Positions 26,595 to 57,851 of a stretch of 64,000 nucleotides of DNA are shown here, piece after piece. The translations under genes and the position numbers were made by a program. The stretch is from NCBI RefSeq assembly GCF_009451885.1, contig NZ_WIAO01000001.1, positions 62,001 to 126,000 of the forward strand. The letters are read 5' to 3'. This stretch comes from Glycomyces albidus (GTDB lineage Bacteria; Actinomycetota; Actinomycetes; Mycobacteriales; Micromonosporaceae). How positions within the stretch are numbered: position 1 is the first letter of the stretch; each line of letters opens with the position of its first letter. The notes beneath the pieces are model-generated. The model worked only from the letters and a program-made list of their open reading frames with translations, had not been told where the DNA came from and made no database searches.

Positions 26595-26721
26595 CTGGGC
26601 GGGAGATGAACGGCGGTGGAAGGGTCGGGGACGGTTGTGTGAGGTCCGGCCCGGCGGATGGCCCCGCCTGCGTCGGGCGGTTACCGTTGCGGCTGACGTC
26701 CGCGCGAACGGAAGGCCCGCC

Positions 26722-27450
26722 GTGATCTACAACCTCTTCGACTCCGCCGCCGCCTACCGGCCGACCGAGGCCGAGCAGGCCGGGCCGGTGCCGCCGATCG
26801 AGGCGGTCCTGTTCGACTTCAGCAACACGATCTTCAAGCTCATCGACATCCCGACGTGGCTGCGGCGGGTCGCCGCCGAGAGCGGCCGGGCGCTCGACGA
26901 CACGCTCGTGGAGAAGACCGCCGCGCAGCTCTACGAGACCTACCGCATCCCCGAGGTCGCCGCGGCGCAGATCGGGCGCGACGAGTCGGCCGCGCAGCAC
27001 CGGATCGCGCTGTTCGCGTGGTTCGAGCGGGTGGACTACCTCCAGGGCATCGAAGCGGTCGCGTACGAGCTCATCGCCGCCCCCGACGCGTGGGTGCCCT
27101 ACCCCGACACCGAGCCGCTCCTGCGCGAGCTGCGCCGCCGCGGCGTCAAGACCGGGATCGTCTCGGACTTCCCGTGGGACGTGGGCGTCCACATGGAGCA
27201 CTTCGGGCTCGAGGACCTGGTGGACGTGCGGGTCATGTCGTACCAGTACGGGACCGAGAAGCCCGACCCGGTGCTGTTCCGGGCCGCCTGCGACCGGCTC
27301 GGGGTCGACCCGCGGGCGACGCTCATGGTCGGCGACAACCCCGCCAAGGACGGCGGCGCGGCCGCCTCCGGCCTGCGGGCGTACCTCCTCCCGGGCGAGC
27401 CCCGCACCGGCGAGCGCGGCCTCGCGCACGTCCTCGGCTTCCTCGACTAG
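26722..27450 (+). CDS. HAD-superfamily hydrolase
   Basis: A 242-residue haloacid-dehalogenase-like protein. Motif I is LFDFSNTIF: the nucleophile Asp is present but the usual second Asp two residues later is Ser. Motif II is near GIVSDF, motif III is the Lys in YGTEKPDPVLF, and motif IV is MVGDNPAKDGG. GTG 26722 was chosen because GGAAGG lies 6 nt upstream. Its stop shares a CTAG with the convergent regulator's stop. Substrate unknown. Confidence 0.85.
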   Translation: MIYNLFDSAAAYRPTEAEQAGPVPPIEAVLFDFSNTIFKLIDIPTWLRRVAAESGRALDDTLVEKTAAQLYETYRIPEVAAAQIGRDESAAQHRIALFAWFERVDYLQGIEAVAYELIAAPDAWVPYPDTEPLLRELRRRGVKTGIVSDFPWDVGVHMEHFGLEDLVDVRVMSYQYGTEKPDPVLFRAACDRLGVDPRATLMVGDNPAKDGGAAASGLRAYLLPGEPRTGERGLAHVLGFLD

Positions 27451-28025
27451 CCCTTCCGCTTCGGTTTGGCGCGCAGGTGGGCGCGCTCGCCTTGGGAGCC
27501 GAAGAGGCTGAGGAACTCCACCGATTCGTCCCCGGCGCGCCCGAACCAGTGCGGGGTGCGCGTGTCGAACTCGGCCGCCTCGCCGGGTTTCATCACGAAG
27601 TCGTGCTCCCCCAACACGACCCGGAGGCGTCCGTTGAGGACGTACATCCACTCGTAGCCCTCGTGGACCTGCGGCTCGGGTTCGCTGCGCTCCCCTGCGG
27701 GGATGATGAGCTTGTACGCCTGGATGCCGCCGGGCCGGCGCGTCAGCGGCAGGTGGACCATGCCGTGGCGCACGACCGGCCGGAGGTGGATGCGCGGGTC
27801 GCCGGTGGGCGGGGCGTCCACGAGCTCGTCGAGGGTGACGCCGTGGGCTTTCGCCAGCGGCAGCAGCAGTTCCAGGGTGGGGCGGCGCGCGCCCGATTCG
27901 AGGCGGGAGAGGGTGCTCACGGAGATGCCCGTCTCCGCGGCGAGGTCGGCGAGGGTCGCCTTGCGCTCCTTGCGGAGTTCGCGCAGGCGGGGGCCGACGG
28001 CGTCCAGGGCCTTGTCGAGATCCAT
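27447..28025 (-). CDS. XRE-cupin transcriptional regulator
   Basis: A 192-residue regulator with an N-terminal XRE helix-turn-helix (TLADLAAETGISVSTLSRLE, about residues 24-43) and a C-terminal cupin (HEGYEWMYVLNGRLRVVLG, KPGEAAEFDTRTPHWFG). Such proteins often repress a neighbouring oxidoreductase gene and sense a small metabolite in the cupin. It is divergent from the thioredoxin-reductase-like gene; a perfect palindrome lies between them. Start ATG 28025; a GTG two codons further out is possible. Confidence 0.92.
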   Translation of the reverse strand: MDLDKALDAVGPRLRELRKERKATLADLAAETGISVSTLSRLESGARRPTLELLLPLAKAHGVTLDELVDAPPTGDPRIHLRPVVRHGMVHLPLTRRPGGIQAYKLIIPAGERSEPEPQVHEGYEWMYVLNGRLRVVLGEHDFVMKPGEAAEFDTRTPHWFGRAGDESVEFLSLFGSQGERAHLRAKPKRKG

Positions 28026-28043
28026 GCCCACCAGTTTGCCAGA

Positions 28044-28086
28044 CCGGCAAGATTCCTTGCCGGTTTCGCGGGTCCCGTTCTACGGT
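28044..28086 (+). promoter_or_regulatory. promoter and operator of the flavoprotein gene
   Basis: A perfect palindrome with arms CCGGCAAG (28044-28051) and CTTGCCGG (28056-28063) covers the -35 TTGCCG (28058-28063). The -10 TACGGT (28081-28086) follows at exactly 17 nt. An extra half-site TTGCC lies at 28036-28040. A repressor here would block the promoter; the adjacent XRE-cupin protein is the obvious candidate. Confidence 0.75.
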
Positions 28087-28106
28087 TCAGGCCGGAGGTG
28101 GTCGAA

Positions 28107-33718: not shown

Positions 33719-36095
33719 GATCCTCACCGCCGCCATCGACGGCCTCGCCGGCGGCGGCGACCCCGCCGCCGCGGCCGCGCTCGACCGGTGGGACCCGAGC
33801 CACTGGCGCAGCGTCCTGCTCGACCTCCCGCTCGACGAGCGCGGCTACCGCGACCGCTTCCTGATCGACCAGGACGCCGAGATCGTGCGGCTCTGGCGCT
33901 GGTGGACGGCCGACGGCGGCCCGGACCGCCCGGCCCAGACCGCCGGGTACCTCGGGTTCTACCTGCTCACGATCGTGGCCCTCCACTGCTCCGAACGGGC
34001 CCGGTTCCACGGGGAGACGGACGTGCGGTTCGCCGTCGGCGAGGAGACCGTCACCGCCGCCCGCATCTCGGCCGGGCTCGTCGCCGACCCGCGGGTCCGC
34101 CGCGCCGTCCAGGTGCTGTACGACCCCGCGTTCGGGAGCGAACCGGCCACCGAGGAGACCCTCGCGGAGTGGGAGAAGATCGACTTCGACTCGCTGCGGT
34201 TCCACCGCCACGGGACCACCTCGGTCATCCTGTACGGCAGGAGCGCGAAACCCAAGGCCAGCCGCCACACCGAGTTCGCGTTCAAATGCCTGATCTACCC
34301 GTACCGGCAGCAGCCGCCGATCGTTGCCGCCACCAGGGCCTACGCGAGCCGGTTCGAAGGGTTCATCCCCGACGACGCGCCCCTGGTCGGCGTCTGGGCC
34401 AGCCACGACGGCTGGATCCTGATGGACTTCCTCAAAGGGGAGACGCTGGCCGACCGGCTCCGGTCGCGCCCGAAGGCCGAGACCAAGCCGCGCAAGACGG
34501 TCGTCCGGCCCGTCGACATCGCCGAACTCGACGTCCTCGGCAGCGCACTCCTGCACGCCCTGGCCGACCTGGAGCGGCTCGACTACCGCCACGAGGACCT
34601 CTCGCCGTCGAACATCGTCGTCCAGTCCGTCGGCGGCGGCACCCGCATCCGCTTCATCGACCTGGGCGTCAACCACCTCCACACCCGGATGCTGCCCGGC
34701 GAGGCGTACGGCGAGGCGGTCTACGTCGCCCCCGAGGTCCGCAAGGGCGGCGGCGGCGACGGGCAGGCCGACCTGTACTCGCTCGGGCGGATCCTGCTGG
34801 CGATCAGCGGCGCGGAGCTCCGACCCGACGGCAGCCTGCCGGACCACTCCTATGTGCTCTCGACGGGCATGGCCCGCCTCCTCGAGGACCTCGTGGACGC
34901 CGATCCGGGCCGGCGCCTGCTGGTGACGCCGATCGAGGAGCACGATCCCGTGCACGGGCAGGACCGCAACCGGATCGACCAGATCCGGGAGCTGTTCGAA
35001 CGCGAGATGGCGGTCATACGCGAGGCCGCCCGCCTCGAACCGGAAGGGGCGCTGGAGAAGGCCAGGAGCCTCCTGCCGGGTTCGGGGACGGTCTCGCGCC
35101 AGGGCCGCATCCTGCGGGTGCGCAAGCGCCAGGCCGCGGAGCTGCGGAGGCGGGGCCTGGCCGCCGACGTGCCGCGGCTGCGCAAGGCCCAGCGGCTGCA
35201 CCGGTGGGCGTGGGCGGCCGCGTTCGTCCTGTGGGGGACGGCCGCGCTCGTCGCGACCTGGTGGGTGGAGGACCTCGGCGTCGGCTGGCAGGCGAAGGGC
35301 ATCGAGATGGTCAACATCGCGATCGCCCAGACCGGGTCGGACTTCGACTTCTTCGCCGCGATGCGCCTGGACGGCTATGACATGCCCGACCCGTGGGAGA
35401 ACCTGCCGGCGCGGCTGGTCGGCTTCTCGTTCGCCCTGGTGAACGCGCGCCTGTACTTGAACCTCTTCGCCGAGATCTCGCCCCTGTCCCCGCTGCCGCG
35501 CCGCGGCCGGCGGCGGTTCCTCACGTGGGCCACCGAGTTCGGGCTCAGGTCGATGGCGGTCCTGCCGTCGCTGTGCGTGCTCATCCCCACGCTGCTCCAA
35601 GGCGACTGGTGGCCGCTGGCGACGCAGATCGGACTGGTGTGGACCGCGATCGTGTTCACCGTGTTCATCGCGTTCGAGCGCGACACCCACCGCCGGGCCC
35701 GCGAGGCGGGCCTGTCCACCGTGCCCGAGGGCGAGTTCCCGCCCGGGCGGCTGGTCCGGTGGCGGCCGACGCTGCTCATCTACTGCGCGACGGTGCTGGT
35801 CATGGGCACCCTGATCATGCTCGACCTGGTGCAGGATGAACTGGTGTACGCGTGCTTCGTGTCGCTGATCAACCTGTCGATCTACTACTTCAAGAGCGCC
35901 GGGGCCGACGCGCCGCGGGTGCGGACCGAGCTGTCGCGGGCGTTCCTGGCGGCCGAGCGGCTCGACCACCTGGAGGCGCGCCGGCGGGCCGCGGCGGCGG
36001 CCGGGCCCCGGACGCCCTCAGAGGGGGCGCCGCATGCAGACGCGGGGCCAGCGGTCGATGCCGTGGGCGGACTCGCGGTCGCGGATCGCGCGTAG
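33702..36095 (+). CDS. polytopic membrane protein kinase coupled to patatin
   Basis: A 797-residue protein. Residues 1-180 are an unrecognised N-terminal domain. Residues 180-420 are a Hanks-type kinase core: Lys195 in FAFKCLIYP, the catalytic loop YRHEDLSPSN (His297, Asp299, Asn304), Asp320 of DLG (for DFG), YVAPEV for the APE motif, and ADLYSLGRILL. No glycine-rich loop is obvious. After a basic coiled region come about six membrane segments (from WAWAAAFVLWGTAALVATWW to FVSLINLSIYYF). The key residues suggest activity. It is translationally coupled to the patatin. Confidence 0.8.
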   Translation: MPTQHEILTAAIDGLAGGGDPAAAAALDRWDPSHWRSVLLDLPLDERGYRDRFLIDQDAEIVRLWRWWTADGGPDRPAQTAGYLGFYLLTIVALHCSERARFHGETDVRFAVGEETVTAARISAGLVADPRVRRAVQVLYDPAFGSEPATEETLAEWEKIDFDSLRFHRHGTTSVILYGRSAKPKASRHTEFAFKCLIYPYRQQPPIVAATRAYASRFEGFIPDDAPLVGVWASHDGWILMDFLKGETLADRLRSRPKAETKPRKTVVRPVDIAELDVLGSALLHALADLERLDYRHEDLSPSNIVVQSVGGGTRIRFIDLGVNHLHTRMLPGEAYGEAVYVAPEVRKGGGGDGQADLYSLGRILLAISGAELRPDGSLPDHSYVLSTGMARLLEDLVDADPGRRLLVTPIEEHDPVHGQDRNRIDQIRELFEREMAVIREAARLEPEGALEKARSLLPGSGTVSRQGRILRVRKRQAAELRRRGLAADVPRLRKAQRLHRWAWAAAFVLWGTAALVATWWVEDLGVGWQAKGIEMVNIAIAQTGSDFDFFAAMRLDGYDMPDPWENLPARLVGFSFALVNARLYLNLFAEISPLSPLPRRGRRRFLTWATEFGLRSMAVLPSLCVLIPTLLQGDWWPLATQIGLVWTAIVFTVFIAFERDTHRRAREAGLSTVPEGEFPPGRLVRWRPTLLIYCATVLVMGTLIMLDLVQDELVYACFVSLINLSIYYFKSAGADAPRVRTELSRAFLAAERLDHLEARRRAAAAAGPRTPSEGAPHADAGPAVDAVGGLAVADRA

Positions 36096-41093: not shown

Positions 41094-41189
41094 GCGGTGC
41101 GCTCTTCGAGCGCTGCGAGACGGCGGTCCACCGGTGCCCGGGGACTTCGGCGATAGAATGCGGGGATTCCTTCCCGGGAGGTCCCGCTC

Positions 41190-43631
41190 GTGCCCAGCGA
41201 CCCGCAGGCCGGCCTTTCGTTCGGCAGCCACTTCCACGACAGCGTCCGCGATGCCGCGCAAGGCGGACGCATCGAGCTGATCGTGGGTGCCCCGCGACCG
41301 CAACCGGTGCGCTGGCCGCACCGGATCGGCACGGTGCCGCAACTGGCGGCATCGAGGCAGGAGCGGGAGGCGGACTGGCGGCTGAGCGGGACGACGGCTC
41401 CATGCCTGGTCCTGTCCGGGATGGGCGGAGTCGGGAAGACGCAACTGGCCGCTGCCTACGCGACGGACCGCTGGAACCGGTCCGAGCTCGACCTGCTGAT
41501 GTGGGTGAACGCGAGCAGCGCTGAGGGCATCATCGCGGCTTTCGCCCAGGCGGGCGTCGAACTCTGCGGTGCGGAGCCGGGCGAGGACGTTCGGGCCGCC
41601 ACCGCGTTCCTCAATCTGCTGTCACGCCCGGAGGCGCCGAGGTGGCTGGTGGTCGTCGACGACCTCGGCGATCCAGCAGCGCTGCAAGGACTCTGGCCGC
41701 CGGTCAACCCGCGCGGCCGGACTCTCGTCACGACTCGGCGCAGGGACGCCGCTCTGGACGCGGAAGGCCGTTCCCGGATCGACATCGGGCTGTTCAGCCC
41801 GGAGGAGTCACTCGCCTACCTCCACGGGCGGCTCGGTTCGCGGTCGAGGCGGGTCGCCGGAGCCGAGCCATTGGCCGAACTCCTGGGCGGCCTCCCGCTC
41901 GCCCTCGGGCAGGCGGCGGCGTTCATCCTCGACCAGCCCGGTCTCACCTGTGAGGACTACCGCCGCCTGTTGGAGGACCGGACCGTGGCGCTGGCCGAGC
42001 TGAGCCCGGAGGCCGCCCCCGACGGTTACGGCGGCTCCCTCCACGCGGCCTGGTCGCTCTCGATCGAGCAGGCCGATCGGCATGCACCGGAAGGGCTCGC
42101 CGGCGGCATCCTGAAGATCGCCGCGCTCCTGGACCCGGCGGGAATCCCCATGGGACTCTTCACCTCGGCGTCGGTTCTCGGGTTCCTTGCGGACGTGACG
42201 GGCACCGAGGGGCTCCGCGCGCTCCAGGTGAGCGCCGCCCTGGGGAGGCTCCACCGGTTGAGCCTGATCGACGCCGACGGTGCCCTGGTGCGGATGCACG
42301 CACTCGTCCAGCGCGCCGTGCTGGAGATGACGACGTCGGTGGAGCGGAGCCTCGCCGCCGAATCCGCCGCCGATGCGCTGCAAGCGCTCTGGCCGGAACC
42401 GGCGGACGGACCGAACTCGACGGCCGTCCTCTGGACCAACCTCTCGCGGCTCATCGAGAAGGCCGGCCGATCGATCCTCGGGGGCGGCGTCCACCCGGTC
42501 TTCTTCGAGGCGGGGAACAGCGTCGGGGCGCAAGGTCAGGTCCGCATGGCGATGGGCTACTTCTCGATGCTCCGGTTCCTCATCGGCCAGGTGCACGTCG
42601 ACGACCATCCCGACGCCATAGAAGCACGGCACGGCTTCGCCCGCTGGCAGGGCGAGTCCGGGGACGTGCTCGGGGCGGTCGAGGGGTTCCAGGCGGTCCT
42701 CGCCGACCGCATCCGGGTCCTCGGCGACGAACACCCGAGGACGTTCGCGACCCGTCAGCGGCTCCTGTACTGGAGAGGGGAGGCGGGCGACCTCGAGACC
42801 GCGATCGCGGAGACCGAGTCGCTGCTCGCCGACCGGTTGCGTCTGCTCGGCCCAGAACATTTCGACGTCCTGATCACCCGTTCGCTGCGGGCCCGCTGGC
42901 AGGGCCGATCGGGTGACGCGGTAGGTGCGGCAGCGGCGAATGAGTCGCTGCTCGCCGACTGCCTACAGACCCTGGGCGCCGACCATCCGTTCACGCTCGC
43001 GGTGCGGCACAACCTCGCGCACTGGCGCGGCGAGGCCGGCGATCCGCAGGGCGCGGCCGCCGCGACGGAGGCACTGCTGGCCGACCGGCTCCGAGTACTG
43101 GGGCCCGACCATCCGGACACGTTCCGCAGCCGCCAGAACCTCGCGGGATGGCTCGGCGAGGCCGGCGACACGACAGCGGCGGTGGACGGTTTGACGAGCG
43201 TGCTCCACGACCAGCTCCGGGTTCTCGGCCCGGATCACCCCGACGTGCTCGCGGTCCGCAACGACCTCGCCAGGTGGACCGCGCGCAGCGACCGGGTGGA
43301 GGAGGCGATCGACGCGTTCACCGAACTGCTCGCCGACTGCGAGCGGATCCTCGACCCCGAGCACCGGTATACGAGGATCGTCGCGCACAACCTCGCCCAC
43401 TGGCGGGAAAGGCGGCGCGCCGGGATCGCCGGTGAGTTCAGCAACGTGGCGGTCTGGGCCGACGGCGGTCTCGCGTCGAACACCGGGGGGCGCGGCACGG
43501 GCGGGATCATGCGCGGCGGCATGATGGGCACCCGCGGAGGGGCCGCCGGCTTCGAACCGAATTCCGATATCGGCACCTGGCTCACCGAGGACGACGACAT
43601 CTGGGGTCAGGCCGAACACGACGAGGACTAG
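41190..43631 (+). CDS. STAND-type NTPase with NB-ARC-like core and TPR-like repeats
   Basis: An 813-residue signal-transducing ATPase. Residues 1-60 are a short N-terminus (SFGSHFHDSVRDAAQGG) similar in style to targeting segments of actinobacterial STAND proteins. Walker A is GMGGVGKT (Lys83), Walker B WLVVVDDL (Asp157-Asp158), then GGLPLALGQAAAF and a winged-helix region. Residues 480-740 hold about six 42-residue helical repeats with LLADRLRLLGPEH and W-R-G-E-A-G-D. A Gly-rich tail (about 757-790) and an acidic end EDDDIWGQAEHDED follow. No effector gene is adjacent. RBS GGGAGG precedes GTG 41190. Confidence 0.85.
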   Translation: MPSDPQAGLSFGSHFHDSVRDAAQGGRIELIVGAPRPQPVRWPHRIGTVPQLAASRQEREADWRLSGTTAPCLVLSGMGGVGKTQLAAAYATDRWNRSELDLLMWVNASSAEGIIAAFAQAGVELCGAEPGEDVRAATAFLNLLSRPEAPRWLVVVDDLGDPAALQGLWPPVNPRGRTLVTTRRRDAALDAEGRSRIDIGLFSPEESLAYLHGRLGSRSRRVAGAEPLAELLGGLPLALGQAAAFILDQPGLTCEDYRRLLEDRTVALAELSPEAAPDGYGGSLHAAWSLSIEQADRHAPEGLAGGILKIAALLDPAGIPMGLFTSASVLGFLADVTGTEGLRALQVSAALGRLHRLSLIDADGALVRMHALVQRAVLEMTTSVERSLAAESAADALQALWPEPADGPNSTAVLWTNLSRLIEKAGRSILGGGVHPVFFEAGNSVGAQGQVRMAMGYFSMLRFLIGQVHVDDHPDAIEARHGFARWQGESGDVLGAVEGFQAVLADRIRVLGDEHPRTFATRQRLLYWRGEAGDLETAIAETESLLADRLRLLGPEHFDVLITRSLRARWQGRSGDAVGAAAANESLLADCLQTLGADHPFTLAVRHNLAHWRGEAGDPQGAAAATEALLADRLRVLGPDHPDTFRSRQNLAGWLGEAGDTTAAVDGLTSVLHDQLRVLGPDHPDVLAVRNDLARWTARSDRVEEAIDAFTELLADCERILDPEHRYTRIVAHNLAHWRERRRAGIAGEFSNVAVWADGGLASNTGGRGTGGIMRGGMMGTRGGAAGFEPNSDIGTWLTEDDDIWGQAEHDED

Positions 43632-46488: not shown

Positions 46489-46558
46489 GGGCGCATCCGG
46501 GGGCTGGTTCGCATCCGGGAATCCTAGCGAACCGGTGCAATCGGTTGCCCGGTTCGTA

Positions 46559-49137: not shown

Positions 49138-49254
49138 TGACGTCCTCAACCATCCGCTCCGCGGGGCCGCAGGTCAAGCCGGGAGCCGGTCGAGGTCCGA
49201 AATCTTGGCATCCTGGTCTTCCGGACACCGCGCTTCCGGGCTTAGCCTGGAGGC

Positions 49255-50217
49255 ATGGACCCGCACCGCGTGGTCGTCGTCGGCTACGACGACGCCGAAC
49301 TCCTCGACATCGCCTGCGTCACCACCACCCTCGACGCCGTCCGCCAGATCAACCCCGACCTGGGGTACGACCTCGCGCTGGCGACCCCCGGCGGCGGGCC
49401 GATCACCTGCTCGACCGGGCTCGTCCTGAACGGCCAGGCCGTGCTCGAACGCGTCCGCGGCCCGATCGGGACGCTCGTCGTCTCCGGCGGACTCGGGCAC
49501 GCCGACGCCGCCCGGGACGAGCGGCTCGTCGGCCACGTGCGCCGCCTCGCCCGCGAGAGCGAGCGCGTCGCGTCCCTGTGCACCGGCGCGAGCGTCCTCG
49601 CCGCGGCCGGGCTGCTCGACGGCAGGCGCGCGACCACCCACTGGCACTTCGCCGAACAGCTCGCCGCGTCCTACCCGGCCGTCCGGGTCGACCCGCGGCC
49701 GATCTGGGTCCAGGACGGGAACGTCTACACCGCCGCGGGCGTGACCAGCGCGCTCGACCTCGCGCTGTCGTTCATCGAGGCCGACTTCGGGCCCGACATG
49801 GCCCGCTGGGTCTCCCGGGCCATGGTCACCTACCTGCACCGGCCGGGGAACCAGGCCCAGATGAGCATGTTCACCGCCGCGCCCGCGGCCGACCACGACA
49901 CGGTCCGCAAGGTCGCCGACCACATCGCCGGGAGGCTCGACGCCGACCTCTCGACCGAGGCGCTGGCCCGGCTCGCGCGGGTGAGCCCGCGGCACCTGAC
50001 GCGGCTGTTCCGCGCCCACCTGCACCAGACGCCGGGCCGCTATGTCAGGAAGGCCCGCGTCACCTCCGCGGCGCAGCTCCTGTCGACCACCGACCTCCCG
50101 GTGGCCCGCATCGCCGCCCGGTGCGGCTTCGCCTCCGCCGAGGCGCTGCGGCAGGCGTTCGCGAAGGAGTACGGCATCGCGCCATCGCAGTACCGGTCGG
50201 TCGCGTCCCGGACCTAG
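49255..50217 (+). CDS. GlxA-type AraC family regulator with DJ-1/PfpI domain
   Basis: A 320-residue activator. Residues 5-180 are a DJ-1/PfpI-like domain with the elbow SLCTGASVLAAAG. Residues 215-315 are a two-helix-turn-helix AraC domain (LARLARVSPRHLTRLFRAHL; ARIAARCGFASAEALRQAF). TAGCCT at 49243-49248 ends 6 nt before the ATG, which would suit a leaderless transcript. Its stop shares a CTAG with the convergent MFS gene. Target unknown. Confidence 0.92.
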   Translation: MDPHRVVVVGYDDAELLDIACVTTTLDAVRQINPDLGYDLALATPGGGPITCSTGLVLNGQAVLERVRGPIGTLVVSGGLGHADAARDERLVGHVRRLARESERVASLCTGASVLAAAGLLDGRRATTHWHFAEQLAASYPAVRVDPRPIWVQDGNVYTAAGVTSALDLALSFIEADFGPDMARWVSRAMVTYLHRPGNQAQMSMFTAAPAADHDTVRKVADHIAGRLDADLSTEALARLARVSPRHLTRLFRAHLHQTPGRYVRKARVTSAAQLLSTTDLPVARIAARCGFASAEALRQAFAKEYGIAPSQYRSVASRT

Positions 50218-51479
50218 GCCACGGACCTGATGGGCCACACCAGGATGCCCCCGAGTAGGGTCACGGCGGCGGCGACCGCGTAGAGGCCGGCGTAGCCGCC
50301 GAACCCGGCGATGATCGGGGCGGCCAGCGCCGGCCCGAGGACCTGCGGGACCGTGGAGGCGATGTTGATGATGCCGAGGTCTTTGGCGCGGTCGGCGGCG
50401 GCGGGCAGGACCTGGGTGATGAGGGCCTGGTCGACCGAGAGGTAGACGCCGAAGCCGGCGCCCATGATCGCGGCGGCGGCGATCGCGGCCGGCCAGGTGT
50501 GCCAGAAGACGAGGATGAGCGCGGCCGCGGCGATGACCACTGAGGACGCGAAGACGAGGATCTTGCGGCGGCCGATGCGGTCGGAGACGACCCCGCCGGC
50601 GACCGCGGTGGCGACGACCCCGCCGGTGTACAGGAGCGTGAGGACGAGGACGCCTTCCTCGGGGTTCGGGTGGTGGACGGCGTCGTCGAGGAAGTACAGC
50701 AGGTAGAGCGTGCCGGTGGCGTTGCCGAGCATGACCAGGAAACGGGTGAACCAGGCCCAGGCGAAGTCGGGGTGGGCGCGCGGGGAGACCCAGAAGGTCT
50801 CCAGGAGGGCCTTCCGGGTGAAGGGCGGGCGGGCCGCCCGCGGCAGCGGCGGATCCGGAGTGGACAGGACGAAGGGGAGGGCCATGGCGGCGGCCGCGAG
50901 GCCGATCACGGCGTAGCCGGCGGCGGTGCCGGTGACGAGCATGGTGACGATGACGGCGCCCACGACGAGGCCGAGGGCCTGCGGGAACCCGATCCAGCCG
51001 GACACGACGGCCCGCTGGCGCACCGGGACGTGGTCGGGGATGCCGGCGTTGAGGCTGGCGTACCCGGCGTTGAGGGCGGCCTGGGCGAGGCACCAGAACA
51101 GGAGGACCCCGAGGACGGTGGTCTGGGTGCCCAAGAGGCACAAGGCGACCGCACCGACGGCGAGGCCGCCGAGGGTCCAGGGGTGGCGGCGGCCGAAGCG
51201 GCCGGTGGTGCGGTCCGACAGCGCCCCGGCGAGGGGGTTGGCGACGACGGCGACGAGTGCGCCCACGCCGGTGACGAGCCCGAACGCGGCGACCTTGCCG
51301 TCCTCGTCGATCGCTTCGAGCTGGATCGGCAGCAGCACCTGGATCGGGGTGAAGAAGGCCATGTAGAGGCCGAGCATCGCGGTGGTGATGCCGCCGATCC
51401 AGACGCGGCCGACGTCGCGGTCCGGTTCGGCCAGCGCGGGGTGGGCGGGAGGGCTGGGGGCGGGCGGGGCGTCGGTCAT
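50214..51479 (-). CDS. MFS transporter (glycoside-type)
   Basis: A 421-residue transporter with twelve predicted segments. GALSDRTTGRFGRRHPW is the sodium:galactoside/sucrose-like loop, and DRIGRRKILVF is the classic MFS loop 8-9 motif. It follows the GH1 gene with an ATGA overlap, so both form one operon: uptake of a beta-glucoside by proton or cation symport and its hydrolysis. Confidence 0.92.
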   Translation of the reverse strand: MTDAPPAPSPPAHPALAEPDRDVGRVWIGGITTAMLGLYMAFFTPIQVLLPIQLEAIDEDGKVAAFGLVTGVGALVAVVANPLAGALSDRTTGRFGRRHPWTLGGLAVGAVALCLLGTQTTVLGVLLFWCLAQAALNAGYASLNAGIPDHVPVRQRAVVSGWIGFPQALGLVVGAVIVTMLVTGTAAGYAVIGLAAAAMALPFVLSTPDPPLPRAARPPFTRKALLETFWVSPRAHPDFAWAWFTRFLVMLGNATGTLYLLYFLDDAVHHPNPEEGVLVLTLLYTGGVVATAVAGGVVSDRIGRRKILVFASSVVIAAAALILVFWHTWPAAIAAAAIMGAGFGVYLSVDQALITQVLPAAADRAKDLGIINIASTVPQVLGPALAAPIIAGFGGYAGLYAVAAAVTLLGGILVWPIRSVA

Positions 51480-52822
51480 CGGCGCTGGTCGCGGATGAGC
51501 GCCGCGTAGCGGTCGAAGGAGTCCTTGGGGGTGCGCTCCTGGGTCTCGAAGTCGACGTGGACGAGGCCGAACCGCTGGTGGTAGCCCTCGGCCCATTCGA
51601 AGTTGTCGAGCAGGCTCCACACCAGGTAGCCGCGGACGTCGGCGCCCTGGTCGACGGCGGCGGCGACGGCCTTGACGTGGGCTTCGAGGTAGTCGATGCG
51701 GGCCTGGTCGCGGATGCGGCCGTCGGCGTCGGGGCCGGTGCCGTAGGAGCAGCCGTTCTCGGTGACCCACAGCGGCGGGAGGGCGTCGCCGTAGTCGGCG
51801 GTGAGGTCGAGGAGGGTCTGGGTGAGGCCGGAGGGGATGACGGGCCAGCCGAAGTCGGTGGTGTTGACGTGCTCGAACTCGGCGAGTTCGAACGGGAGCG
51901 GGGTCTGGCCGGGTTCGGGGGCGGTGACGCGGGTCGGGTTGTAGTAGTTGACGCCGAGTCCGTCGAGGGGCTGGTTGATCGCGGCGAGGTCGCCGTCCTT
52001 GATGAACGGGAGGGCGCCGTCGAGGCCGAAGGAGCCGAGGTCGGGGTAGGTGCCGAGGAGGACCGGGTCGGTGAAGACGCGGCGGTGGAGGGTGTCGTAG
52101 GCGCGGGCGGCCTCGGTGTCGGCGGCGCTGCCGCTGTAGGGGATCGCGGGCGTGTACGAGTTGGTGAGCATGACGTGGGGGGCGCCGGCGGCGCGGAGTG
52201 CGGCGGTGGCGAGGCCGTGCGCGAGGAGCTGGTGGTGGGCGGCCGGGAGGGCGTCGAGGAGGTAGGTGTGGCCGGGGGCGTGCTGGCCGAGCGCGTAGCC
52301 GAGCGCCATGTGCTCGAAGGGCTCGTTGAGGGTGATCCAGTGGGGCACGCGGTCGGCGAGGCGGGCGGCGACGATGGCGGTGTACTCGGCGAAGCGGTGC
52401 GCGGTGTCGCGGTCGAGCCAGCCGCCGCGGTCTTCGAGCGCCTGCGGGAGGTCCCAGTGGAAGAGGGTCGGCATGGGGGCGATGCCGGCGGCGAGGAGGG
52501 CGTCGACGAGACGGTCGTAGAAGGCGAGGCCGGGTTCGTTGGCGGGGCCGGTCCCGTCGGGCTGGATGCGGGGCCAGGCGATGGAGAAGCGGTAGGCGTC
52601 GACGCCGAGGCGCTGGAGGAGGGCGACGTCCGCTTCGTAGCGGTGGTAGTGGTCGCAGGCGGTCGCGGCGGTGTGGCCGTCGCGGACCTTGCCGGGCGTC
52701 GCCGTGAAGGTGTCCCATATGGATCGCCCGCGTCCGTCCTCGGTCGCGGCCCCCTCGATCTGGAACGCCGATGTGGCGGCGCCCCAGACGAATCCTTCGG
52801 GCAGGCGCGGTATCGCGGCCAC
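51476..52822 (-). CDS. second GH1 beta-glucosidase
   Basis: A 448-residue cytoplasmic enzyme with FVWGAATSAFQIEGA, the acid/base Glu167 in TLNEPFEHM, the nucleophile Glu355 in WVTENGCSYG and WSLLDNFEWAEGY. Unlike the first GH1 it has the full T-L-N-E-P motif. GTG 52822 follows GGAGG by 5 nt. Its partner is an MFS carrier rather than an ABC system, which suggests a different glucoside. Confidence 0.93.
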   Translation of the reverse strand: MAAIPRLPEGFVWGAATSAFQIEGAATEDGRGRSIWDTFTATPGKVRDGHTAATACDHYHRYEADVALLQRLGVDAYRFSIAWPRIQPDGTGPANEPGLAFYDRLVDALLAAGIAPMPTLFHWDLPQALEDRGGWLDRDTAHRFAEYTAIVAARLADRVPHWITLNEPFEHMALGYALGQHAPGHTYLLDALPAAHHQLLAHGLATAALRAAGAPHVMLTNSYTPAIPYSGSAADTEAARAYDTLHRRVFTDPVLLGTYPDLGSFGLDGALPFIKDGDLAAINQPLDGLGVNYYNPTRVTAPEPGQTPLPFELAEFEHVNTTDFGWPVIPSGLTQTLLDLTADYGDALPPLWVTENGCSYGTGPDADGRIRDQARIDYLEAHVKAVAAAVDQGADVRGYLVWSLLDNFEWAEGYHQRFGLVHVDFETQERTPKDSFDRYAALIRDQRR

Positions 52823-52859
52823 AGGCACCTCCGAAAACGTGACGTGAGTAACGTTCGTG

Positions 52860-52888
52860 AAGATACCAGGTCGTGAACCGGTCGGTAA
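52860..52888 (-). promoter_or_regulatory. promoter of the GH1-MFS operon
   Basis: On the minus strand TTACCG (52888-52883) and TATCTT (52865-52860) are 17 nt apart. AACGTT and overlapping ACGTGA/TCACG words (52835-52858) lie just downstream and look operator-like. The remaining part of the 358-bp gap (52823-53180) contains the PHO box and phoX promoter. Confidence 0.5.
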
Positions 52889-53053
52889 CCCCTCTTCGGC
52901 CGGGGCCTCCCGGTTGTTCACCGCGCCCGGAAAGGACCGGGCGCGGCGGGGCGGCCCGGCCGGGAGGCGGCGCCGGTGCAGGCCGGGACGGTTGCGGCGC
53001 AGTGATCCGATTCGCCCTCGCGTCGGTCGAATCCGCAGTACCGTGACGAGGGC

Positions 53054-53109
53054 GTTCGCCGGGAGTTCACTCGACGTTGGTGGAACCGCATACCCGCCGC
53101 GCATAGCGT
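53054..53109 (+). promoter_or_regulatory. three-unit PHO box and phoX promoter
   Basis: GTTCGCC (53054-53060), GTTCACT (53065-53071) and GTTGGTG (53076-53082) recur with an exact 11-bp period, the layout of actinobacterial PhoP boxes (consensus GTTCACC). TAGCGT at 53104-53109 is a plausible -10, leaving the box directly over or upstream of the -35. A lone GTTCACC lies at 52916-52922. Confidence 0.75.
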
Positions 53110-56413: not shown

Positions 56414-56421
56414 GAGCCCAA

Positions 56422-56457
56422 CCGAACGGCGGCGCCCGACCGGGCGCCGCCGTTCGG
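56422..56457 (+). terminator. SDR terminator
   Basis: Perfect 17-bp arms (56422-56438, 56441-56457) starting with the same CCGAACGGCGGCG as the phoX terminator. The rest of the gap to 56768 has a short hairpin near 56515 and the imuA promoter region, and no convincing gene. Confidence 0.85.
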
Positions 56458-56735
56458 CGTCTCCCGGGCCGGTGTGCGCGCTCCGCCGGGCCGCTTCCGA
56501 TTCCGTCGTGAACCCCCCGAGCGGGGTCTCCCGCGCTTGGGCCGACGCGCCGCGGGCGGCGGGAGGGTTCGCCGTCTCCTGCGGAGTGGGCGAACGGCGC
56601 AGAGCGCGTTTCGGCGCAGTTTTCATGACATCGGCGTGCCATGCGGCCTGGGGTCGGGCCGAAAAAATCGGGCAGGAGATTAATCGAACACCAGTTTGAG
56701 GTTGCGTCGCGCCCGCAGTTCGGTATGTTGATCTT

Positions 56736-56749
56736 GATACACATGTTCG
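56736..56749. promoter_or_regulatory. degenerate SOS (LexA) box of the mutasome operon
   Basis: GATAC-ACAT-GTTCG matches the actinobacterial LexA consensus CGAAC-N4-GTTCG at eight of ten arm positions (right arm perfect). It lies 20 nt before GTG 56769, at the expected promoter position, and TATGTT (56724-56729) is a possible -10. Confidence 0.55.
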
Positions 56750-56768
56750 ACAGAGCACGGGGGAACTG

Positions 56769-57851
56769 GTGGCGACATCCGTCGCGGCCGCGCTGGCCGC
56801 TGAGCTCGGTCTGCGCACGGCCGCAGAGTTGCACCCGGCAGCCGGGGCGCGCACCGCTGACGCGCCGCGGCCCGCCGAGGCGGGCCCGGCGGCCGAAGCG
56901 CGCGCCGCCGCGCTCGTCGGTGCGGCCCGCTCGGAGGTGCTCCCGCCGCCGAAGGCCATCCTGCCCGTCACCCCCGACATTTCCGCCCTCCTGCCCTACG
57001 GCGGACTCGCAACCGTGACCGCAATCACCGCCTCGGCCCGAGGAGCCACCTCGCTGCTGTGGCGGCTGCTGGCCGGGCCCAGCCGGGCCGGGGCGTGGTG
57101 CGCGCTGGTCGGGATGCCGCGCGTCTACCCGCTCGCCGCGACCGCCGCCGGGGTCGACCTCGGGCGGGTGGCCCTGGTCGACCCGGGGCCGCGCATCGCC
57201 GAGGCGGCCGGGGCACTGGCCGAGGGCGTCGCCGCGATCGTCGTCCCCAGCGAGGCCCTGAGCCCCGCGCAGGCGCGGCGCCTGGCCGCCCGCGCCCGCG
57301 GCAGCGGCACCTCCATCGTGTGGTGGGAGACGCGGCCCGTGGCCGGCGCCGACGCCCGGCTCCAGGTGGCCCGCGCCCACTGGAAGGGCCTGCGCGAGAA
57401 CGCCGGCCGCCGCTGGGGCGCCGGGCGGCTCGACGCCTGCGAACTCGAGGTCGCCGCCCGCTGGCGCTCCGGCGGCGTCCGGCGGGCCTCGATCTGGCCG
57501 TACGGCGGCAGGCCCGGGGAACCACTCCCCGATCCCCGCGGCCGTGCCGCTGAACCGCACGCCGAGCCGCGCGACAGGGCCGGGCACCGCACCGTCGTGA
57601 ACCTGCGCTCCCGCGCCGCCGAACCGTCGAGCGGCGAACGGCCTGCCCAACACCTCACCGAGGCGGGCGACCCGGCCGAGTGCCGCACGGACGACCGGCC
57701 CGCCGACGGCACCGCGGGCCCGCAAGACGGCGCCACCGCGGTCGTGGACCTGCGCACCCGCGCCGCCGAACCGCACCGTCCCGAAGGCGCCGCGGAGGCG
57801 CGCGGCGTGTTCCGCCCCGCCGCGCGCGTCGGTGGAGGTGAGCGGCGATGA
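56769..57851 (+). CDS. imuA: ImuA-like SOS mutagenesis protein
   Basis: A 360-residue RecA-fold-like accessory protein of the translesion mutasome. The core (about 65-240) shows LLPYGGLATVTAITASARGATSLLWRL, where the usual P-loop Gly-Lys-Thr is lost, and PYGGRPGE ends the fold. The tail (245-360) is Arg/Pro/Ala-rich and carries three R-x-RAAEP repeats. GGGGGA precedes GTG 56769. Its ATGA overlap with imuB makes a tight operon. Identity rests mainly on context. Confidence 0.8.
   Translation: MATSVAAALAAELGLRTAAELHPAAGARTADAPRPAEAGPAAEARAAALVGAARSEVLPPPKAILPVTPDISALLPYGGLATVTAITASARGATSLLWRLLAGPSRAGAWCALVGMPRVYPLAATAAGVDLGRVALVDPGPRIAEAAGALAEGVAAIVVPSEALSPAQARRLAARARGSGTSIVWWETRPVAGADARLQVARAHWKGLRENAGRRWGAGRLDACELEVAARWRSGGVRRASIWPYGGRPGEPLPDPRGRAAEPHAEPRDRAGHRTVVNLRSRAAEPSSGERPAQHLTEAGDPAECRTDDRPADGTAGPQDGATAVVDLRTRAAEPHRPEGAAEARGVFRPAARVGGGERR

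Follow-up and report, generated by a model that had tools for sequence, protein, structure and literature searches.

Overlaps between convergent genes have been described in bacteria, and in the part of the 2007 Biol Direct study drawn on here (PMC2174442), their number jumps at a length of four bases, the tetramers being CTAA, TTAA, CTAG and TTAG. According to the same sections, such genes must then have their terminators within coding sequence. Examples exist in E. coli, in which rho-independent terminators were predicted for at least one of the two genes at 21 of 58 convergent overlaps. Convergent overlaps require movement of a stop codon and are both gained and lost, as set out in the relevant portion of PMC4161906. 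For Rickettsia prowazekii, the pertinent text of PMC3027695 reports measurements on convergent pairs lacking site-specific termination, some of which yield antisense RNA. For Streptomyces clavuligerus, the passages of PMC8269248 used here describe stable stems at overlapping transcript ends on opposite strands, with 49 of 1,427 transcript ends located inside an opposite-strand ORF. As this class of overlap has already been published, the two shared stops of Glycomyces albidus analyzed here represent two instances of a known and ordinary feature.

Two convergent gene pairs with a common CTAG

The window, i.e. the whole analyzed stretch of 64,000 nucleotides (72% GC; genome size 5.76 Mb), contains two positions at which the TAG stops of two called convergent genes overlap by exactly four bases within a CTAG, that is, within a pyrimidine-TA-purine tetramer. 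Gene limits were obtained from a home-made (unpublished) Markov caller in combination with ORF lists, and families were assigned using Pfam. The junctions and their genes are as follows:

27447-27450, both strands: junction 1, CTAG providing the overlapping TAG stops of the HAD hydrolase (+) and XRE-cupin regulator (-) genes
26635-27450, + strand: HAD-family hydrolase gene (Pfam PF00702, E 2e-23; GC at codon position 3, GC3, 0.97; start codon approximate)
27447-28025, - strand: gene of a regulator with XRE-type HTH and cupin domains (Pfam HTH_3 and Cupin_2, best family E 7e-16; GC3 0.94; start at 28025 according to the gene caller and at 28031 in the ORF list)
50214-50217, both strands: junction 2, CTAG providing the overlapping TAG stops of the DJ-1/AraC regulator (+) and MFS transporter (-) genes
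49255-50217, + strand: gene of a regulator with DJ-1/PfpI and AraC-type HTH domains (Pfam HTH_18 and DJ-1_PfpI; GC3 0.98)
50214-51479, - strand: MFS transporter gene as called (Pfam MFS_1, E 2e-32; GC3 0.97)

The minus-strand ORF listed at 50214-52718 is overlong relative to the called transporter gene; the best MFS_1 stretch corresponds to residues 451-677 of this long ORF, and the next minus-strand gene (51476-53104) overlaps the transporter start by four bases.

Both frames are real genes at each junction, as indicated by their Pfam domains, GC3 and homologs in relatives. The best Pfam family reaches an E-value of 3e-23 or lower for three of the four genes, the XRE-cupin regulator being the remaining one, and GC3 lies between 0.94 and 0.98 throughout. 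In one scan, from which records of the own genome were possibly omitted, the nearest named relatives of the hydrolase were from Glycomyces species (80-90% protein identity). The initial annotation had proposed that at both positions two convergent genes use the same CTAG as TAG stops, and this is confirmed by sequence, ORFs, Pfam families and GC3.

Since each CTAG stops one frame per strand, ORF lists exaggerate stop sharing, and either ORF at a junction could in principle be a shadow created by gene calling. Only two of the 17 CTAGs in the window (27447 and 50214) join two called genes, and three others yield look-alikes. At two of these (2090 and 29772), the ORF that faces a called gene has codon-position GC of the non-coding type; the third, at 46524, sits within a called minus-strand gene, so that its plus-strand ORF is a shadow. 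Given the domains, third-position GC and homologs of all four junction genes, however, such an artefact has next to no chance of accounting for the two junctions and is already refuted.

Some further called gene ends deserve mention in their own right. A 78-base convergent overlap was called at 36018-36095 between a kinase-domain ORF (+) and a GNAT acetyltransferase (-), both with Pfam matches, and possibly reflects a wrong end or a frameshift. Two long stretches (41094-41870 and 56414-57113) are devoid of called genes, the former perhaps belonging to the N-terminal region of the ORF that comes next, listed at 41190-43631. Elsewhere, two 17-base convergent overlaps, both with TGA stops, are found 906 bases apart (L079, 17521-17537 and 18427-18443).

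Recurrence and frequency of the four-base overlap

A hydrolase homolog with at least 62% identity is present in 17 of 41 genomes, own genome included. Among these 17, junction 1 is at an offset of -4 (stops overlapping by four bases) in four genomes, at offsets of 7 and 12 bases in two and at 473-1164 bases in five, the value of 473 (L022/L101) running to a stop well beyond the aligned end of the regulator, such that the true spacing is maybe nearer 1 kb; in the remaining six, a search over 1.5 kb detected no partner. When flanks of 3 kb were considered in the 14 named Glycomyces records, a set that overlaps with the 17 genomes, the partner was located at 1994 bases in one further record and at 2020 bases in another, and two records showed no partner within the flanks. 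Alignment of the six close cases revealed a constant hydrolase terminus and a regulator tail of varying length.

Junction 2 could be followed in 15 genomes. The shared stop is CTAG in the own genome and TTAA in one relative, three genomes have offsets of 3, 32 and 35 bases, the partners are 3.1-5.3 kb apart in seven, and the partner was not found in three. In the five close cases, the terminus of the transporter is constant and the AraC tail varies.

Two additional own-genome pairs were compared in the same manner. In the first, a TTAG dual stop (L075, 6559-6562) is shared by genes labeled, by eye and without family search, as encoding a helicase (HrpB-like) and a membrane protein (M50-like). 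From a set of 22 genomes, one in which the helicase is missing from the flank and three with implausible offsets (-213, -729 and -780) were dropped; in the 18 scorable Glycomyces genomes, this junction is at -4 in six, with CTAG, TTAG or CTAA as the tetramer, and, in a tree built from four proteins, the -4 state is distributed over three clades that stand apart from one another. The second is a CTAG at which the gene of an MFS-like protein and a small gene on the minus strand share their stop (L070, 11726-11729); a close match of its left gene occurs in 5 of 22 genomes, own included, and the overlap was seen in none of the other four, the right gene being missing from the flank in three of them.

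Judged from these comparisons, shared-stop overlaps are thus recurrent and labile, other relatives having offsets of 3-35 bases or 0.5-5 kb of other DNA at the same pairs. Because the branching within the five-genome clade is weak (0.11-0.63), a relative with a gap could also derive from an overlapping one.

Regarding overall frequency, the 464 kb sampled from the own genome contain 68 called convergent pairs, of which 4 show the -4 overlap (three CTAG, one TTAG), the commonest single overlap offset among them. Over 1.26 Mb of three genomes, it accounts for 9 of 176 pairs (six CTAG, two TTAG, one CTAA), some of the 176 being probably miscalled (e.g. offsets of 1885 and 2913 bases). These rates rest on stretches picked non-randomly, by contig and position: for the own genome, the window and a further 400 kb in 20 stretches, and for each of two relatives, 400 kb. 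Two -4 cases among the nine called convergent pairs of the window (binomial P about 0.07) are within expectation and not remarkable. As a separate observation, CTAG is about threefold depleted in the own genome and scarce in the two relatives as well (114 observed versus 305 expected, and 76 versus 332), where 44 of 114 and 19 of 76 copies are at stops.

Kingsford and others reportedly modeled the offsets of near-overlapping genes in 2007. We simulated stop loss by deleting the stop of one gene and reading on in three frames (126 gene ends, 378 trials). Eighteen of the 378 trials ended at -4, compared to a mean of 0.62 for each of the 60 remaining offsets in the range of -30 to 30; -4 is favored because a terminus of the form pyrimidine-TA-purine acts as a stop whichever strand is read. 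The simulated share is about the same as the observed one (9 of 176). In the simulation, 81% of the trials ended within the partner, as opposed to 9 of 68 observed pairs that overlap, which implies that long overlaps must be weeded out by selection. The simulation is therefore an incomplete null, and the match between the -4 shares may be partly luck.

Probable stop-codon capture and competing explanations

We consider it highly probable that both junctions are ordinary four-base convergent overlaps made by stop-codon capture. An indel or a substitution, perhaps accompanied by loss of intergenic DNA, would have removed the stop of one gene, whose frame would then run on to the first in-frame stop, namely the complement of the partner's terminus. 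Capture of the partner's terminus in this way is possible because each pyrimidine-TA-purine tetramer reads as a stop from either strand, and the terminus would act as such in one of the three frames of the stop-less gene. The alignments are consistent with this second step: the fixed end belongs to the hydrolase at junction 1 and to the transporter at junction 2, and the variable tails to the XRE-cupin and AraC regulators, respectively. The states encountered among relatives (CTAG, TTAG, CTAA and TTAA, all dual stops) would represent the resulting overlaps, which may be lost again. As a consequence, each transcript would be expected to end inside the partner gene, by Rho, polymerase collision or diffuse termination.

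A different possibility is that the shared stop has been selected as a tail-to-tail excludon, in which mutually antisense mRNAs let a regulator and its neighbor repress each other. Each window pair does include one regulator (XRE-cupin or DJ-1/AraC), convergent genes without a terminator between them are one arrangement drawn in the part of PMC7154746 used here, neither junction has a strong hairpin, in agreement with the lack of a terminator in the tail-to-tail type, and the -4 state recurs in three clades at the HrpB-like/M50-like pair. However, most of the relatives considered lack the overlap, which was seen in 4 of 17 genomes for junction 1 and in 2 of 15 for junction 2, the genes are often non-adjacent, and the -4 frequency is near that expected from passive capture, making such a selected role unlikely. 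The tetramer itself could alternatively be a signal, e.g. a protein-binding or termination site, retained at gene ends. CTAG is rare in the 464 kb of the own genome (102 observed versus 317 expected), and 46 of these 102 copies sit at a called stop codon, yet the gene-end copies match the count of C-preceded TAG stops (49), and the tetramer is exchanged for TTAA at the junction 2 ortholog and for TTAG and CTAA at the HrpB-like/M50-like pair. These swaps weaken the idea of a CTAG signal, which we regard as very improbable.

Termination at convergent gene ends

The initial annotation had further stated that no terminator fits between the convergent genes and that antisense read-through is likely at both places. 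The former holds by geometry. A scan of 26600-28100 and 49250-51600 also detected no site combining a hairpin with a T-run, and no unusually stable fold was found around the four junction stops in the region that begins 20 nt ahead of each stop and ends 80 nt beyond it (z -0.5 to 1.6 in one computation and -1.28 to 1.77 in the other, which folded 100-nt segments). The best 40-nt folds near the four stops range from -13.5 to -21.5 kcal/mol, compared to medians of -17.8 or -18.4 in gene interiors, and neither junction has, between its stops, a strong bidirectional hairpin that both transcripts would read, hairpins being counted as strong when the most stable 40-nt fold close to the stop has -25 kcal/mol or lower. 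In addition, the window has no Rfam match at gathering scores.

As for antisense read-through, the missing space for a terminator would force the 3' ends into a short antisense overlap and make a longer one possible. Each mRNA that contains its own stop enters the partner by some bases, and with no strong hairpin at either junction it must run at least slightly into it; in this weak sense the claim is supported, whereas extended read-through is a guess. Termination may take place inside the partner gene at these junctions. Rho is encoded in the genome, and the C-over-G bias past the stops, scanned as a Rho signature, is unremarkable at -4 junctions (mean -0.031, compared to -0.073 antisense to gene interiors).

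Strong hairpins are distributed unevenly over the convergent ends of the three genomes, with the restriction that both ends of one pair read one hairpin, so that the end counts are non-independent. They occur at 80 of 102 ends with gaps of 31-80 bases, at 15 of 50 with gaps of 11-30, at 2 of 20 with offsets of -3 to 10, at 3 of 18 ends of -4 pairs and at 7 of 30 ends of longer overlaps; wider gaps show intermediate shares (37 of 80 ends at 81-200 bases and 18 of 40 at 201-600), and gene interiors have them at 13 of 200 places. The median fold of -4 ends (-20.6) is slightly more structured than that of gene interiors (-18.4; P 0.05) and clearly differs from that of 31-80 base gaps (-32.6; P 6e-8). 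The hairpins within 31-80 base gaps are nearly devoid of T-runs (at least four T in eight positions in 1 of 78; mean 1.50, expected 1.12) and would thus be missed by a hairpin-plus-T-run terminator scan. The occurrence of strong hairpins without T-run in most convergent gaps of this size points to a possible class of U-less bidirectional terminators in Glycomyces.

At orthologous pairs of three junctions with gaps of 21-60 bases, 0 of 16 ends reach -25 kcal/mol, compared to 1 of 24 at -4. The overlap hence did not clearly cost a terminator, since the gapped orthologs equally lack strong hairpins, and the idea that junction 2 has lost a hairpin terminator kept by its relatives is unsupported by these counts. 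One relative with a 32-base gap at junction 2 (L050/L151) has a visible hairpin of -26.5 kcal/mol (-24.6 and -23.7 in a second computation).

Convergent ends in Glycomyces might fall into two termination classes, with gaps of 31-80 bases carrying a strong shared hairpin without U-run and shared-stop pairs ending by Rho or collision inside the partner, a model that we put forward as speculative and rather doubtful. If it were true, a pair that loses its spacer would exchange its clean ends for mutual antisense RNA, and close species that differ in offset, as at junction 2 and the HrpB-like/M50-like pair, would constitute a natural experiment. Taken alone, the two shared stops have little significance; they fit a passive and labile origin of such overlaps and direct attention to orthologous pairs within one genus, with and without spacer, in which the effect of losing terminator space is measurable.

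Overall, the closest comparison can be made in light of the known systems introduced above. The R. prowazekii pairs covered in the text of PMC3027695 used here are 137-1910 bases apart and had their RNA measured, whereas the Glycomyces genes overlap at both junctions. Pairs with gaps of 31-80 bases in Glycomyces are possibly like the bidirectional ends of S. clavuligerus described in the cited part of PMC8269248; in contrast, the two window junctions lack a hairpin of that type. The pertinent sections of PMC4161906 deal with gene pairs of E. coli and the corresponding orthologs, while single junctions are compared here base by base in Glycomyces relatives. With respect to the four-base convergent overlaps in the portion of PMC2174442 used here, geometry and tetramers are the same as at both junctions and there is no difference in kind; in addition, the present analysis follows individual junctions, with their respective states, through one genus.
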